A DNA stretch of 22,940 bases from a virus, in IMG/VR virus record IMGVR_UViG_3300025431_000016, positions 1 through 22,940 of that record; one strand, 5' to 3'. Below, in pieces: positions 5,827 to 14,314 of this stretch; position 1 is the stretch's first letter, and each line of letters starts with the position of its first letter. The notes under the pieces are model-generated. The model did no database searches and was not told where the DNA came from. It saw only the letters and a list, made by a program, of their open reading frames with translations. The translations under genes were made by a program, and so were the position numbers.

Positions 5827-5859
5827 TTATAATAAGAGATAGTTAAACTTGTATATACT

Positions 5860-5888
5860 ATTATACACCTGTTTACGGGTTTTGTCAA
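5860..5888 (-). promoter_or_regulatory. Consensus sigma70 promoter for portal-scaffold-coat genes
   Basis: On the minus strand a perfect TTGACA (5883-5888) and perfect TATAAT (5860-5865) are 17 bases apart, with TG one base before the -10. It fires toward the portal ATG at 5826. The promoter and 25 bases upstream form a 54-bp cassette (5860-5913) that recurs at 8926-8979 with 46 of 54 identical bases. The block of 21 bases furthest upstream is identical in both copies. Confidence 0.85.
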
Positions 5889-5918
5889 CCCCTAAAGTGT
5901 AAATAGTTTGAAATTAGT

Positions 5919-8342: not shown

Positions 8343-8774
8343 TTATTCTACTATCTCAGCAGTCTCTGCATCTATAGTCATCTCTTCTTTAGCAGGTATA
8401 ATAAAGATACCACCAGATACGTTATGTTCTACGTTCATCTTTTGTTCTTTAACAACACCCACTCTGTCTAACAAAGTCTGAGCAGCTTGTAACTTCTGAT
8501 TAACCTGTGGTATAGGCATATCACTGGTCATAATGTCTACTATTTTGTTAGCTGCTCTAGGAGCGTTCTTAGCTAACGTATGTGTAGCTATCTCTATTAG
8601 TTCACTAGATAAAGATTGTAGTAAGAAAGTAGAGGGAGCTGATGAATCATAACCAGCTACTGTCATAGCTTGTCTAACATCTCCAGTCTTAGAATCATAC
8701 ATAGCATCTAAGAAAGATTGTTGCTTCTCTGTGTACTTTCTTTTCTTTTCTAACATAGTCTGTGGTATGGACAT
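8343..8774 (-). CDS. terS: Probable terminase small subunit
   Basis: This 143-residue protein is the first gene of the leftward operon, where the DNA-recognition subunit of terminase is expected. The N-terminus has KRKYTEKQQSFLDAMYDSKT followed by RQAMTVAGYDSSAPSTFLLQ, a helix-turn-helix arrangement used by TerS proteins to bind packaging sites. The middle has a helical oligomerisation-like stretch (AARAANKIVDIM-type, here NAPRAANKIVDIMTSD, then NQKLQAAQTLLDRVGVVKEQ), the usual TerS ending. An AGGA ribosome site lies seven bases before the ATG at 8774. The assignment is by context and sequence style. Confidence 0.7.
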   Translation of the reverse strand: MSIPQTMLEKKRKYTEKQQSFLDAMYDSKTGDVRQAMTVAGYDSSAPSTFLLQSLSSELIEIATHTLAKNAPRAANKIVDIMTSDMPIPQVNQKLQAAQTLLDRVGVVKEQKMNVEHNVSGGIFIIPAKEEMTIDAETAEIVE

Positions 8775-8823: not shown

Positions 8824-8925
8824 GTATAGATATCTATATGAATATCTTAGAAACTCTTAAAGAATTAATATAAATAATAAAGAAATATAAACTCCTAAGA
8901 ACTCTTGAAGATATTCTATATGAAT

Positions 8926-8954
8926 ATTATACACACGTTTAGAGGTTTTGTCAA
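8926..8954 (-). promoter_or_regulatory. Consensus sigma70 promoter for the terminase genes
   Basis: On the minus strand TTGACA (8949-8954) and TATAAT (8926-8931) are both perfect, with a 17-base spacer. The cassette 8926-8979 repeats the portal promoter cassette. Four of its eight differences are a CCCC/GGGG switch next to the -35 box. It drives the small and large terminase genes and the hydroxylase gene. Confidence 0.85.
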
Positions 8955-9151
8955 GGGGTAAAGTGTAAATAGTTTGAAAATAAATAGACAGTGCTTTAGT
9001 AGTAGTACTTATAATGAATATCATAATGAGGGGCGAGACTGTCATAATGTACTTATACTGGTTGACAAGGATATATGGTGTAAAATGTATAACAGTGCTA
9101 TAAATATACTAGGGGGGCGGGGGTGTCCCTGCGTACCCGTGCGTATACCTT

Positions 9152-9170
9152 AATGATAGTCATTCTCATT
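9152..9170 (+). promoter_or_regulatory. Fur-box-like operator 1
   Basis: AATGATAGTCATTCTCATT is a 9-1-9 dyad. In the register of the E. coli Fur consensus GATAATGATAATCATTATC, bases 9149-9167 match at 15 of 19 positions by eye. A TATAAA -10-like hexamer follows two bases downstream. Confidence 0.6.
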
Positions 9171-9220: not shown

Positions 9221-9239
9221 AATGAGAATCATTCGCATT
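9221..9239 (+). promoter_or_regulatory. Fur-box-like operator 2
   Basis: AATGAGAATCATTCGCATT is a 9-1-9 dyad with one mismatch between arms. It matches 14 of 19 positions of the E. coli Fur consensus in the shifted register. It is the weakest of the three sites. Confidence 0.5.
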
Positions 9240-9313: not shown

Positions 9314-9332
9314 AATGATAATCATTCTCATT
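9314..9332 (+). promoter_or_regulatory. Fur-box-like operator 3
   Basis: AATGATAATCATTCTCATT differs from the perfect dyad by one base. It matches 16 of 19 positions of the E. coli Fur consensus and fits the AATGANAATNATTNTCATT form seen in gammaproteobacteria. A perfect TATAAT lies four bases downstream (9337-9342), so a bound Fur dimer would cover a promoter there. Confidence 0.65.
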
Positions 9333-9550: not shown

Positions 9551-9600
9551 ATAGTTGAAAAATAGTTTGACATTGGTTTAATAATCTGTTAAGGTGTGCA
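9551..9600 (+). promoter_or_regulatory. Rightward promoter-like cassette, copy 2
   Basis: TTGACA at 9567-9572 is followed 17 bases later by TAAGGT (9590-9595), a weak -10. The upstream ATAGTTGAAAAATA block is shared with copy 1, 109 bases away. It is well placed to transcribe the gene starting at 9731. Confidence 0.5.
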
Positions 9601-9633
9601 CCATATCAATAAACAAAGGGTTTTTTGGTATAC

Positions 9634-9671
9634 GTTGCAATTTTGCAACAATTTGTAGTAAAAATACTACA
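9634..9671 (+). repeat. Two adjacent perfect inverted repeats
   Basis: GTTGCAA-tt-TTGCAAC (9634-9649) is followed four bases later by TGTAGTA-aaaa-TACTACA (9654-9671). Both have perfect 7-bp arms. They lie in the untranslated leader or operator zone of the gene at 9731, and may be protein-binding dyads or RNA hairpins. Confidence 0.6.
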
Positions 9672-9686
9672 CTTTGTTATTAGCGT

Positions 9687-9703
9687 TAATTAACAGTTAA
9701 TTA
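9687..9703 (+). repeat. TAATTAAC-N-GTTAATTA dyad, copy 1
   Basis: A perfect 8-1-8 dyad sits 27 bases before the ATG at 9731. It shares the flanks TTAGC and TTAG with copy 3. It may be an operator (inference). Confidence 0.65.
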
Positions 9704-9730
9704 GCAAAGATTATAAAAAAGGTAACTATT

Positions 9731-10222
9731 ATGACTAACACAAAAATAAAGAAAATCACGAAAAACACTACACCGAATAACATTAACAAAAGTAAAAAGA
9801 TATCAGATTTTAAAAACTTGATTAACCTTGCGAATGCAACGGATAAAGAATTAAAAGAATTATCAATCACCAAAGGCAAAGTTTGTGATAATATCGTTAA
9901 TTACTACATAGGTTTAAACATTGGCGAATTTGAAAATAAATTCAAAACTGACGCCATAGAAAATGATATTGCTATACGTTTAAAAGGCTTTAAACCATCA
10001 CCAATCGCAAAACCAATCATTGGTACTGCCAAAACGGTGATATCGAATTGCAAAAAGTTTATAAAACTAGGTAACGTTATCAATAAAACTACTACTTATA
10101 AAGCAATACGCAAGGCAACCGCGTCAAAACCAACTTTGACAGAAAATCGAATTAATCTGAATAAAAAATTAGCTTTACTATCTGACGATATTATCGCTAA
10201 ACTACTTGAAACCTTAAAATAA
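9731..10222 (+). CDS. Basic 163-residue protein of unknown function, first early gene
   Basis: I do not recognise this protein. It is strongly basic and Lys/Asn-rich, especially in the first 30 residues (MTNTKIKKITKNTT) and the centre (ISNCKKFIKLGNVINKTTTY). It lacks membrane segments and has one helical stretch around LINLANATDKELKELSITKG. An AAGG ribosome site lies upstream. It is the first rightward gene, has its own promoter-like cassettes, is followed by a hairpin (10237-10268), and is flanked by dyads at 9687-9703 and 10303-10319. Its codon use is more AT-rich than the replication genes. All this fits a self-contained, exchangeable early cassette encoding a nucleic acid-binding or host-takeover protein, but the function is inferred only from charge and position. 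Confidence 0.65.
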   Translation: MTNTKIKKITKNTTPNNINKSKKISDFKNLINLANATDKELKELSITKGKVCDNIVNYYIGLNIGEFENKFKTDAIENDIAIRLKGFKPSPIAKPIIGTAKTVISNCKKFIKLGNVINKTTTYKAIRKATASKPTLTENRINLNKKLALLSDDIIAKLLETLK

Positions 10223-10236
10223 CCTTTTAACAAAAA

Positions 10237-10268
10237 GCCATTAATCGCCTTAACGGGTGATTTTTGGC
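10237..10268 (+). terminator. Hairpin after the basic early gene, candidate terminator
   Basis: GCCA-tt-AATCGCC, loop TTAACG, GGTGATT-tt-TGGC folds as a 7-bp stem with one G-T wobble plus an outer 4-bp stem across a small internal loop. A TTTTT run lies within the 3' arm. It begins 14 bases after the stop codon. Confidence 0.5.
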
Positions 10269-10302
10269 GTCCGTTATAAAGTAATTTTTACTAATTAGCT
10301 GT

Positions 10303-10319
10303 TAATTAACTGTTAATTA
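10303..10319 (+). repeat. TAATTAAC-N-GTTAATTA dyad, copy 2
   Basis: A perfect 8-1-8 dyad with T at the centre, so it is inverted relative to copies 1 and 3. A further half-site, CTAATTAGC, lies just to the left, giving three half-sites at 11-base spacing. The remaining sequence between 10223 and 10490 is AT-rich and shows no gene. Confidence 0.65.
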
Positions 10320-10439
10320 GTAAACGTTATATATAAGATTTAAGCCATTATTATTGAATAACCTATACATAGTATAGATTTTATATAATAGTTGCTTAAA
10401 TCGAATATATGAGCGTTTAATAGGTCATTACTTAGCCGT

Positions 10440-10456
10440 TAATTAACAGTTAATTA
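10440..10456 (+). repeat. TAATTAAC-N-GTTAATTA dyad, copy 3
   Basis: Same dyad and orientation as copy 1, again preceded by TTAGC and followed by TTAG. It sits 34 bases before the ATG at 10491, so copies 1 and 3 each immediately precede a gene. Confidence 0.65.
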
Positions 10457-10490
10457 GTGAAAAATAATAATAAAACTTAGAGGATATAAA

Positions 10491-10661
10491 ATGATTAATA
10501 CAAACTATGATTTTGATAATAATAATCAAGATGATTTAATGATTAATGGTAACGATAACGATTTTCTGATATCGGATTTTGTAACAGAATTTGATAATAT
10601 GAATGAGTTTGATGTAATGGATTTTGATAATAATGAGGTGTTTACTAATGAATATAAATAA
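10491..10661 (+). CDS. Very acidic Asp/Asn-rich 56-residue protein
   Basis: This protein is not recognised. It opens MINTNYDFDNNNQDDLMING and continues with FVTEFDNMNEFDVMDF. It has a large excess of Asp and Glu, many Asn and Phe, and only one Lys, at its C-terminus. AGAGGA stands seven bases before the ATG. Small acidic early phage proteins often mimic DNA or bind host RNA polymerase or restriction enzymes, so an inhibitor role is a fair guess from composition but unproven. It overlaps the next gene by 14 bases in another frame. Confidence 0.6.
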   Translation: MINTNYDFDNNNQDDLMINGNDNDFLISDFVTEFDNMNEFDVMDFDNNEVFTNEYK

Positions 10662-11737: not shown

Positions 11738-12091
11738 ATGACAAACTTTTTTAATAAAATCTTCAACCGTACTACGGCAACTACAACTACAACTACTGAT
11801 TTGTTTACTCGTATTAGTGTACATCACAATAAGAATACGCGTAAGGTAAATCAAACCACCACTGTAGCACTGAGAGGTAACAAGAAAGAAGCCATTGCTG
11901 AGATACTACGTAAGGGTATTCCAATGACAGCGAGAGAGTTAGCACATACTGCAGGCTTCAAGCTGTCGTATGTAGCATCAGCGTTTCAGTACGACAAGAA
12001 AAACCTACCTACTACACGTCTGTTTAAAGAAGCAGGTAGTCGCAAATGTATGTTCTCAGGCAACGTAGCTAAGCTATACACTGTGAAATAA
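11738..12091 (+). CDS. Thr-rich linker plus winged-helix-like protein
   Basis: This is a 117-residue protein. Residues 12-20 are a Thr tract, with a further Thr/Asn/His-rich linker. From about residue 48 a DNA-binding-like domain follows: NKKEAIAEILRKGIPMTARE, LAHTAGFKLSYVASAFQYDK and RKCMFSGNVAKLYTVK, resembling a winged helix with a beta-wing end. It may regulate early genes. A 16-bp perfect palindrome overlaps its stop codon. The upstream 63 bases show no strong ribosome site, only AGG about 12 bases ahead, so expression may be low. Confidence 0.6.
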   Translation: MTNFFNKIFNRTTATTTTTTDLFTRISVHHNKNTRKVNQTTTVALRGNKKEAIAEILRKGIPMTARELAHTAGFKLSYVASAFQYDKKNLPTTRLFKEAGSRKCMFSGNVAKLYTVK

Positions 12092-12102
12092 ACGCGTTTA
12101 TT
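12087..12102 (+). promoter_or_regulatory. 16-bp perfect palindrome, possible operator
   Basis: AATAAACGCGTTTATT is a perfect palindrome spanning the stop of the winged-helix-like gene and lying just before the strong ribosome site of the next reading frame. It may be a binding site for a dimeric regulator or an RNA hairpin. Confidence 0.4.
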
Positions 12103-12115
12103 CTAGGAGAATACT

Positions 12116-13730: not shown

Positions 13731-13947
13731 AATAATTAAACTGTTACAAGAAACATACGAACCCGATGATGAACTAATGATTGATTGGATAGACAAGTAC
13801 CAAGCAGAAGTTGATACCGAGGAGCAGTGGAATTGGGCTGTCGGTATGATGGAGGGCAGTAGCGAGGGAATGATTGATATGTATTATGTACAGGATATGG
13901 TAAGTGAAGCGATTGCTGATTTAGAAGCAGAACAAAGGAGTAGATAA
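13717..13947 (+). CDS. Small acidic hypothetical protein, 76 residues
   Basis: This protein is not recognised. It is acidic and helical, with KVSRIIKLLQETYEPDDELM and WIDKYQAEVDTEEQWNWAVG, and a Met-rich middle (GMMEGSSEGMIDMYYVQDMV). An AGGAGG site lies in the overlapping upstream gene. Its last residues, EAEQRSR, are encoded by a 23-base sequence that recurs at the end of the next gene. Confidence 0.6.
   Translation: MKVSRIIKLLQETYEPDDELMIDWIDKYQAEVDTEEQWNWAVGMMEGSSEGMIDMYYVQDMVSEAIADLEAEQRSR
13923..13945 (+). repeat. 23-bp exact direct repeat, copy 1 (gene-end junction)
   Basis: The sequence running from AGAAGCAGAACAAAGGAGTA to GAT occurs here and at 14099-14121. Both copies sit at the 3' end of a gene and supply both the C-terminus (EAEQRSR) and the AAAGGAG ribosome site for the gene that follows. 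Confidence 0.85.
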
Positions 13948-14123
13948 TGAAAGATAAGATTAAAGAGATTAATATACCAATCAGTGAGTTTGATGTTGAG
14001 ATGTTGAAGAACGTAGCCTATGACAACGACCATTTCTATTGGGAGTTTGAGGTTGTTGGTAGTGGTGAACTCATACGAGTAAACTTTATGAGTGTCGAAG
14101 AAGCAGAACAAAGGAGTAGATGA
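13947..14123 (+). CDS. Small hypothetical protein, 58 residues
   Basis: This protein is not recognised. It reads KDKIKEINIPISEFDVEMLK, then YWEFEVVGSGELIRVNFMSV, with a mixed strand/helix character, and ends EEAEQRSR like its upstream neighbour. The AAAGGAG of the first repeat copy is its ribosome site. Confidence 0.55.
   Translation: MKDKIKEINIPISEFDVEMLKNVAYDNDHFYWEFEVVGSGELIRVNFMSVEEAEQRSR
14099..14121 (+). repeat. 23-bp exact direct repeat, copy 2 (gene-end junction)
   Basis: Identical to 13923-13945. The distance between copies is 176 bases, about one small gene, so recombination between copies would remove or duplicate the gene at 13947-14123 cleanly. Confidence 0.85.
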
Positions 14124-14314
14124 TGAATAATGATACCAACGTAAGGGGTACACACAGAAGTACGCCACAATCGAATCCTCGTAAGGCTGAGGATGATATA
14201 CGGATGGATAACCTCAAGGATATGTTTCATACCACTACTATTATGGACAGTATGAATAGGATTATGAAATTAGTAGAGAAAGGTGAGCGACTTAAGAGAG
14301 GTAGTTATGAATGA
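14120..14314 (+). CDS. Small basic hypothetical protein, 64 residues
   Basis: This protein is not recognised. It starts with a polar, probably disordered segment (NNDTNVRGTHRSTPQSNPRK) and ends with a helix (IMDSMNRIMKLVEKGERLKR). Start is at one of two adjacent ATGs (14120 or 14123), served by AAAGGAG in the repeat. The end overlaps the next gene by 8 bases. Confidence 0.5.
   Translation: MMNNDTNVRGTHRSTPQSNPRKAEDDIRMDNLKDMFHTTTIMDSMNRIMKLVEKGERLKRGSYE

Follow-up and report, generated by a model that had tools for sequence, protein, structure and literature searches.

Gene 1 and the early transcription unit

We analyzed a 22,940-base IMG/VR virus record with a GC content of 39%, the whole of which is referred to here as the window. 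Structural genes run leftward from position 8774 and early genes rightward from 9731, and a 950-bp AT-rich gap separates the two sets. The nearest cultured relatives are the Pelagibacter phages HTVC103P, HTVC104P, and HTVC115P. The terminase is 68–72% identical to theirs at the amino acid level over about 80% of the protein, the portal DNA is 76% identical to that of HTVC103P, and GP88 shares 48.5% identity with its homologue in the Puniceispirillum phage HMO-2011. These phages resemble the window in those genes but differ from it at the first early gene, gene 1, a homologue of which was absent from every phage record searched. The features of the locus are as follows.

9567..9595, + strand: early promoter TTGACA-17-TAAGGT, about 90 bp upstream of dyad 1
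9600..9672, + strand: structured leader with the hairpins GTTGCA-ATTT-TGCAAC (9634–9649) and TGTAGTA-AAAA-TACTACA (9654–9671)
9687..9703, unstranded: dyad 1, TAATTAAC-A-GTTAATTA, 27 nt before the gene-1 ATG
9731..10222, + strand: gene 1, encoding a 163-aa basic, all-helical protein of no known family, a probable regulator (ORF, homologues, AlphaFold2)
10243..10265, + strand: intrinsic terminator directly after gene 1
10292..10319, unstranded: dyad 2, the overlapping pair TAATTAGC-T-GTTAATTA and TAATTAAC-T-GTTAATTA, 11 bp apart, past the gene-1 terminator
10429..10456, unstranded: dyad 3, an overlapping pair of the imperfect TACTTAGC-C-GTTAATTA and the exact TAATTAAC-A-GTTAATTA, 34 nt before the gene-2 ATG
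10491..10661, + strand: gene 2, encoding a 56-aa acidic protein (NYDFDNNNQDD...), the first gene past the terminator
12086..12103, unstranded: lone dyad of another class, AAATAAACGCGTTTATTC, with one mismatch, over the stop of a 117-aa ORF and before a Shine-Dalgarno (SD) sequence

Carriers of gene 1 are uncultured marine viruses of bacteria, kin to pelagiphages and HMO-2011. Homologues of the protein were found in IMG/VR in L002 (94% identity), L003 and L026 (48%), L012/L013 (51%), and L015 and L017 (52%), and more diverged ones in L028 (44%), L018 (25%), L044 (22%), and L041 (partial). The initial annotation had described the product as basic, the gene as unrecognised, and its sequence as more AT-rich than the neighbouring genes. 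The protein of the window indeed carries a net charge of +18, and full-length homologues range from +9 to +22. With 29.7% GC, gene 1 is more AT-rich than terS (36.8%) and GP88 (39.4%), but not than the genes at 10491 (22.2%) and 10779 (26.2%). The gene also stayed unrecognised, as no match was obtained in Pfam, PHROGs, PDB sequences, cultured phages, or GTDB genomes. Pfam and PHROGs searches with single proteins and with alignments gave just noise at E-values of 0.008–0.5, each in one or two members, and PADLOC likewise gave noise only. A tblastn search of 50,697 phage records with the window, L015, and L044 homologues returned no match, a PDB sequence search with the gene-1 protein returned none that was significant, and a scan of GTDB genomes gave 183 pattern matches and no relative.

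Fold prediction, suggested in the initial annotation, was carried out with AlphaFold2. The window protein was modeled with a pLDDT of 81 and eight helices, a disordered basic N-terminus preceding an ordered helical domain, and the L044 homologue (pLDDT 78) showed a similar order of helices. Foldseek searches of the PDB with these two models gave nothing below an E-value of 0.38, and we claim no new fold; the best match of the L044 model was HrtR (E-value 0.38, probability 0.25), and the window model gave nothing useful. The sole match in BFVD was an uncharacterised Pseudomonas phage protein, V5YTR4 (probability 0.85, TM-score 0.43, E-value 0.33). No recognisable DNA-binding domain was found by the Pfam, PDB-sequence, and Foldseek searches, and no profile of the helix-turn-helix or ribbon-helix-helix families matched the protein.

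The promoter and the terminator are conserved among the related loci. The early promoter was read from the sequence and the alignment; its -10 element is weak in the window, relatives have TTGACA with TATAGT or TAACAT, and a sigma-70-like promoter was scored 129–158 nt before the ATG in L003, L026, L012, L015, L017, and L028. A script detected a terminator directly after gene 1 in each of the 11 loci, with stems that differ in sequence; a stricter tool scan did not list it. No consistent promoter was found across loci between this terminator and gene 2.

The leader between promoter and dyad 1 is itself strongly structured, with a folding z-score of -5.4 over 9600–9733. Its two hairpins have 4-nt loops and show paired changes at two hairpin positions across seven loci (GTTGCA/TGCAAC to GTTGTA/TACAAC, and GTAGTA/TACTAC to GTTGTA/TACAAC). 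Hairpins of this kind with other sequences seem to be present in L018, L028, and L044. No Rfam family matched the leader hairpins; possibly they are put-like or stability elements. A long inverted repeat, GATTTAAGC...GCTTAAATC, occupies 10329–10410, between the terminator and gene 2, and is partly conserved in L012, L015, L017, and L028.

Dyads around gene 1 and their variation with the protein

The initial annotation had reported three perfect 8-1-8 dyads, TAATTAAC-N-GTTAATTA, and these are present as exact copies at 9687–9703, 10303–10319, and 10440–10456, placed as described before the ATG at 9731 (27 nt), past the gene-1 stop codon, here measured as 80 bp beyond 10222, and before the ATG at 10491 (34 nt). 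There is no further exact copy in the window, and no other exact dyad of that size recurs in it. The placement is not random: with up to three mismatches allowed, the window held five matches, all inside 9687–10456, whereas the same search of 100 dinucleotide shuffles gave a mean of 0.35 and a maximum of 3, so that no shuffle reached the observed number. An exact 8-arm dyad family with at least three copies likewise arose in 0 of 5,000 first-order simulations of 9600–10490. The longer flanks TTAGC and TTAG noted for copies 1 and 3 do occur there but are not limited to them, since copy 2 has both. At copies 2 and 3, the dyad is part of a longer array in which half-sites overlap at a distance of 11 bp; the array at copy 2 reads CTAATTAGC-T-GTTAATTAAC-T-GTTAATTAG.

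Gene 1 and its dyads are kept between terS and GP88, even though the homologous proteins share just 22–52% identity. All loci with gene 1 carry a dyad at matching places. In every locus holding that stretch, dyad 1 lies 17–29 nt before the gene-1 start codon, and wherever a related contig extends to gene 2, dyads precede that gene as well. The last of these is 21–38 nt from the ATG in the window, L002, L015, L017, L028, L018, L044, and L041; L012 is an exception, with an extra stretch that puts the last dyad 188 nt before the gene-2 ATG. Between one and four copies lie on the far side of gene 1, with just one in L018 and L041, and more occur in other early intercistronic gaps (L012:2319 and L028:4941).

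By sequence and spacer length, the dyads fall into four classes, all with the core AAT-W-AAC and its mirror half (GTT-W-ATT) 1–2 bp away. The dyads at gene 1 are distributed as follows.

TAATTAAC-1: window, L002, L003, L026
AAATAAAC-1: L012, L015, L017
TAATTAAC-2: L028
AAATAAAC-2: L018, L044, L041

On the protein tree, these class labels require three changes, which is the minimum, and none of 200 shuffles gave as low a number; the test covers 11 protein rows and four classes, and because several rows are close kin, the association represents few independent events rather than eleven. Class B does not come out as a single clade in the tree. The classes differ by two site changes, T or A at the fifth base of the half-site and a spacer of 1 or 2; inspection of the protein alignment by eye pointed to residues 75, 81, and 100 of the window protein among the candidates to account for the half-site change. 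Sites of the gene-1 protein were predicted to be present wherever the gene is, to lie at the same places, and to change with the protein, and all three predictions held. The initial annotation had counted against its proposal any relatives that keep the gene and lack the dyads. Taken literally, L012, L015, L017, L028, L018, and L044 are such relatives, the TAATTAAC-1 dyad being absent or degenerate in them; however, each place holds a different dyad with the AAT-W-AAC core, which argues for a cognate operator.

Dyads and gene were also compared in the other direction. Among 73 IMG/VR stretches with an exact AAATAAAC-N-GTTTATTT, at least three near copies were present solely in contigs L012, L013, L015, and L017, which are the only ones of the 73 that encode the gene-1 protein. 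The exact GTTAATTAACWGTTAATTAG occurred in four contigs, three of which carry gene 1; the fourth, L004, is an unrelated contig with a single copy, which we put down to chance. L042 and L020 have the same neighbourhood as the window with a different first gene, and neither has any of the four dyad classes. Dyads of these classes were likewise absent from the same place in the four cultured phage records inspected, and L042 and these four phages have unrelated first early genes in this position.

L042 has dyads of its own. Between 2282 and 6456, an unrelated dyad, TTTTACAG-S-CTGTAATAG, occurs six times, in five exact copies and one imperfect one, against 0.06 expected by chance, and four exact copies lie 30–41 nt before the next ATG of early genes. 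The first gene of L042 encodes 146 aa and is unrelated to gene 1; together with these dyads, it appears as a second set of protein plus sites at the same place. Because L042 has its own repeated dyads, the position is suggested to hold an exchangeable regulator with matching sites.

The lone dyad at 12086–12103 belongs to the class found in distant relatives, AAATAAACGCGTTTATTC, whereas the window's own class is TAATTAAC-1. It recurs at L002:5086, a copy that is not independent of the window, and is possibly a further site. Two other identities were considered for the dyads and rejected. A promoter formed by the dyad plus a -10 element (TTAACA-17-AATAAT at 10443, 10 of 12 positions) had no such match kept in the other classes, and the dyad contains, by eye, CTGT-N6-ACAG rather than the N8 spacing of a LexA-type site.

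Proposed action of the gene-1 protein and competing explanations

The operator reading of the initial annotation, possibly for the 163-residue protein itself, is strongly supported: the class of the dyad shifts with the lineage of the protein, and these dyads are missing from loci that have a different first gene. Judging from sequence comparison, the dyads are in all likelihood the cognate sites of the gene-1 protein, and because the sites change in step with the protein, it very probably controls the early genes through them. Gene 1 would probably be the first gene read after infection, in the order sigma-70-like promoter, leader, dyad 1, gene, and terminator. Its product, a basic helical protein probably acting as a dimer, would bind directly to AAT-W-AAC, a spacer of 1–2 bp, and GTT-W-ATT. 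Bound at dyad 1, some 90 bp past the promoter of its gene, the protein would stop RNA polymerase and thus limit its own synthesis, and on the dyads just before gene 2, it would turn down the early operon once enough had accumulated, acting as a repressor rather than an activator.

How the sites would work depends on their location. The dyads do not overlap the conserved promoter, which counts against this model, as does the failure of the searches to find a DNA-binding domain in the protein. Because the sites are away from the promoter, a protein bound to DNA would act by blocking elongation. With sites some 90 bp beyond the promoter and next to ribosome-binding sites, a stoperator-like roadblock on DNA is the most likely form of control, and we consider it moderately probable. 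DNA as the target is favored by the near-perfect palindromes, by half-sites that overlap at 11 bp, and by a 1-bp spacer that may be A or T in either strand sense. The central C-G pair, moreover, is invariant in 31 of 31 sites, and a loop of 1–2 nt could not close this pair in RNA. Against DNA, nearly all dyads are located next to ribosome-binding sites, in leaders or gaps that are transcribed.

An RNA target is an alternative that we regard as possible but rather unlikely. The same pair of protein and site would then work on short mRNA hairpins, with the protein as a translational repressor or as a lambda-N-like antiterminator that lets polymerase pass the gene-1 terminator. The sites do lie 17–38 nt before start codons, ahead of SD sequences, and also in gaps of the operon (L028:4941, L012:2319, and window 12086), and the interval from terminator to gene 2 is without a consistent promoter. 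The order of promoter, site, gene 1, terminator, and other early genes resembles pL-nutL-N-tL1. At arm positions 7–10, moreover, G-T outnumber A-C pairs on the transcribed strand by 22 to 6 (17 to 15 at control positions 11–14), a count inflated by related copies; such an excess in the outer arms is what an RNA hairpin would give. Dyad 1 also lengthens to about 10 pairs in most loci, partly by paired changes, but the extra pairs are not conserved at many downstream sites. The core stems are nearly all A-U, with folding energies of about -0.1 to -6.1 kcal/mol in six sites folded, the invariant C and G would be unpaired in the loop, and sites overlapping at 11 bp are hard to see as hairpins. Of similarly low probability is a bolder reading, in which a new phage protein family reads palindromic hairpins in early-mRNA leaders and gaps and controls translation or termination through a protein-hairpin code. 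This proposal draws on the four site classes for one family and on L042, where an unrelated first gene has its own unrelated dyads in similar places; if true, a start-proximal control system would be swapped as a set of protein plus sites between marine phages.

Other explanations give the gene-1 protein a different part or none. Repeated, similar dyads beside the gene of a basic protein, with an AT-rich gap that holds long hairpins, could also be iterons of a replication origin, with gene 1 encoding an initiator that represses itself. We find this improbable, as copies also occur before gene 1 and in gaps past GP88, unclustered and at start codons, the number on the far side falls to one in L018 and L041, and gene 1 lies in the first transcription unit, not beside the polymerase and helicase. 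Binding by a host regulator, the class then mirroring the host rather than the protein, might be considered because the phages also bear Fur-box-like, seemingly host-directed sites. It is quite improbable: the dyads follow gene 1 and are all missing from L042 and L020, which have another first gene, and the Fur-like boxes are alike across dyad classes, so that the set of host regulators need not have changed.

The initial annotation had also raised the possibility that the dyads mark the ends of a mobile cassette carrying gene 1, and near-identical copies do flank the gene on both sides. This now seems very improbable. While the genomic location stays fixed, the dyad classes vary with the protein, the sites differing between lineages at the same synteny, and copy numbers are unequal, with one to four on the far side and more elsewhere in the operon (L012:2319 and L028:4941). 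The comparison of relatives for presence or absence of the cassette revealed no empty site, and the hallmark of a transposon or cassette, terminal repeats that recur at unrelated sites or enclose unrelated cargo, was not found.

Known systems and other repeats in the window

The general kind of system, a phage early regulator with repeated sites, is known; the gene-1 protein is a new family with matched sites, and its variant features are that these are palindromic, start-proximal, and of four matched classes. In phage lambda, N is a small basic protein of the first early unit, with a nut (boxB) site in the leader and a terminator after the gene, and types of site and protein change together between phages. 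The gene-1 system is similar in having a terminator between the first and the other early genes (11 of 11 loci) and a site upstream in the leader. It is unlike N/nut in that, by eye, the aligned leaders show no boxA and the protein alignment no arginine-rich N-terminus, and unlike boxB, its sites would form A-U stems with 3–4-nt loops.

The stoperators of Cluster A mycobacteriophages such as L5 and Trixie block elongation, and their repressors and motifs diverge together (PMC6550527, PMC9283540). As in the gene-1 system, one phage protein is associated with several copies of a site, including one near its own gene, the sites lie away from promoters, and protein and motif diverge together between phages. 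Stoperators, however, are asymmetric, bound by monomers, and spread genome-wide in temperate phages (PMC6550527, PMC9283540), whereas the gene-1 sites are palindromic, few, and confined to early leaders and gaps, and nothing shows lysogeny. The gene-1 protein was unrelated to the Cluster A immunity repressor in every search made.

The SAS and ESAS repeats of Cluster K mycobacteriophages are start-associated repeats of unassigned function (PMC3203893). They are similarly tied to the translation starts of a subset of genes, include inverted repeats in ESAS, and differ between subclusters (PMC3203893). The passages cited name no cognate protein (PMC3203893), and the sequences are unrelated to ours, whereas the gene-1 sites accompany one identified gene. 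In these uncultured marine phages, an early protein that had gone unrecognised gains a testable function, and the four site classes matched to proteins form a natural set from which a recognition code could be read.

Further repeats were observed elsewhere in the window. The gap between late and early genes contains three Fur-box-like 19-mers, AATGATAATCATTCTCATT and variants (9152–9170, 9221–9239, and 9314–9332), with none expected in shuffles, and similar sites occur in varying number in the same gap of L003, L002, L026, L012, L018, and L044. Stretches of 29–31 nt in Klebsiella RaK2-like, T5-like, and other enterobacterial phages resemble them with weak E-values. Among the papers searched, none dealt with Fur boxes in lytic phages. 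Sites of this kind might connect the early promoters of the phage with iron regulation in the host.

Two 58-bp copies of a leftward promoter region, 84% alike, lie at 5859–5916 and 8925–8982, the latter with a perfect TTGACA-17-TATAAT at 8954–8926, and are likely the late promoters of terS and portal. Finally, a 29-nt direct repeat (97%) occurs twice in a row at 13923–13951 and 14099–14127, bridging the 3' end of one ORF (..AEQRSR, then ATG) and the start of the next, and looks like a small-gene insertion or a recombination joint.
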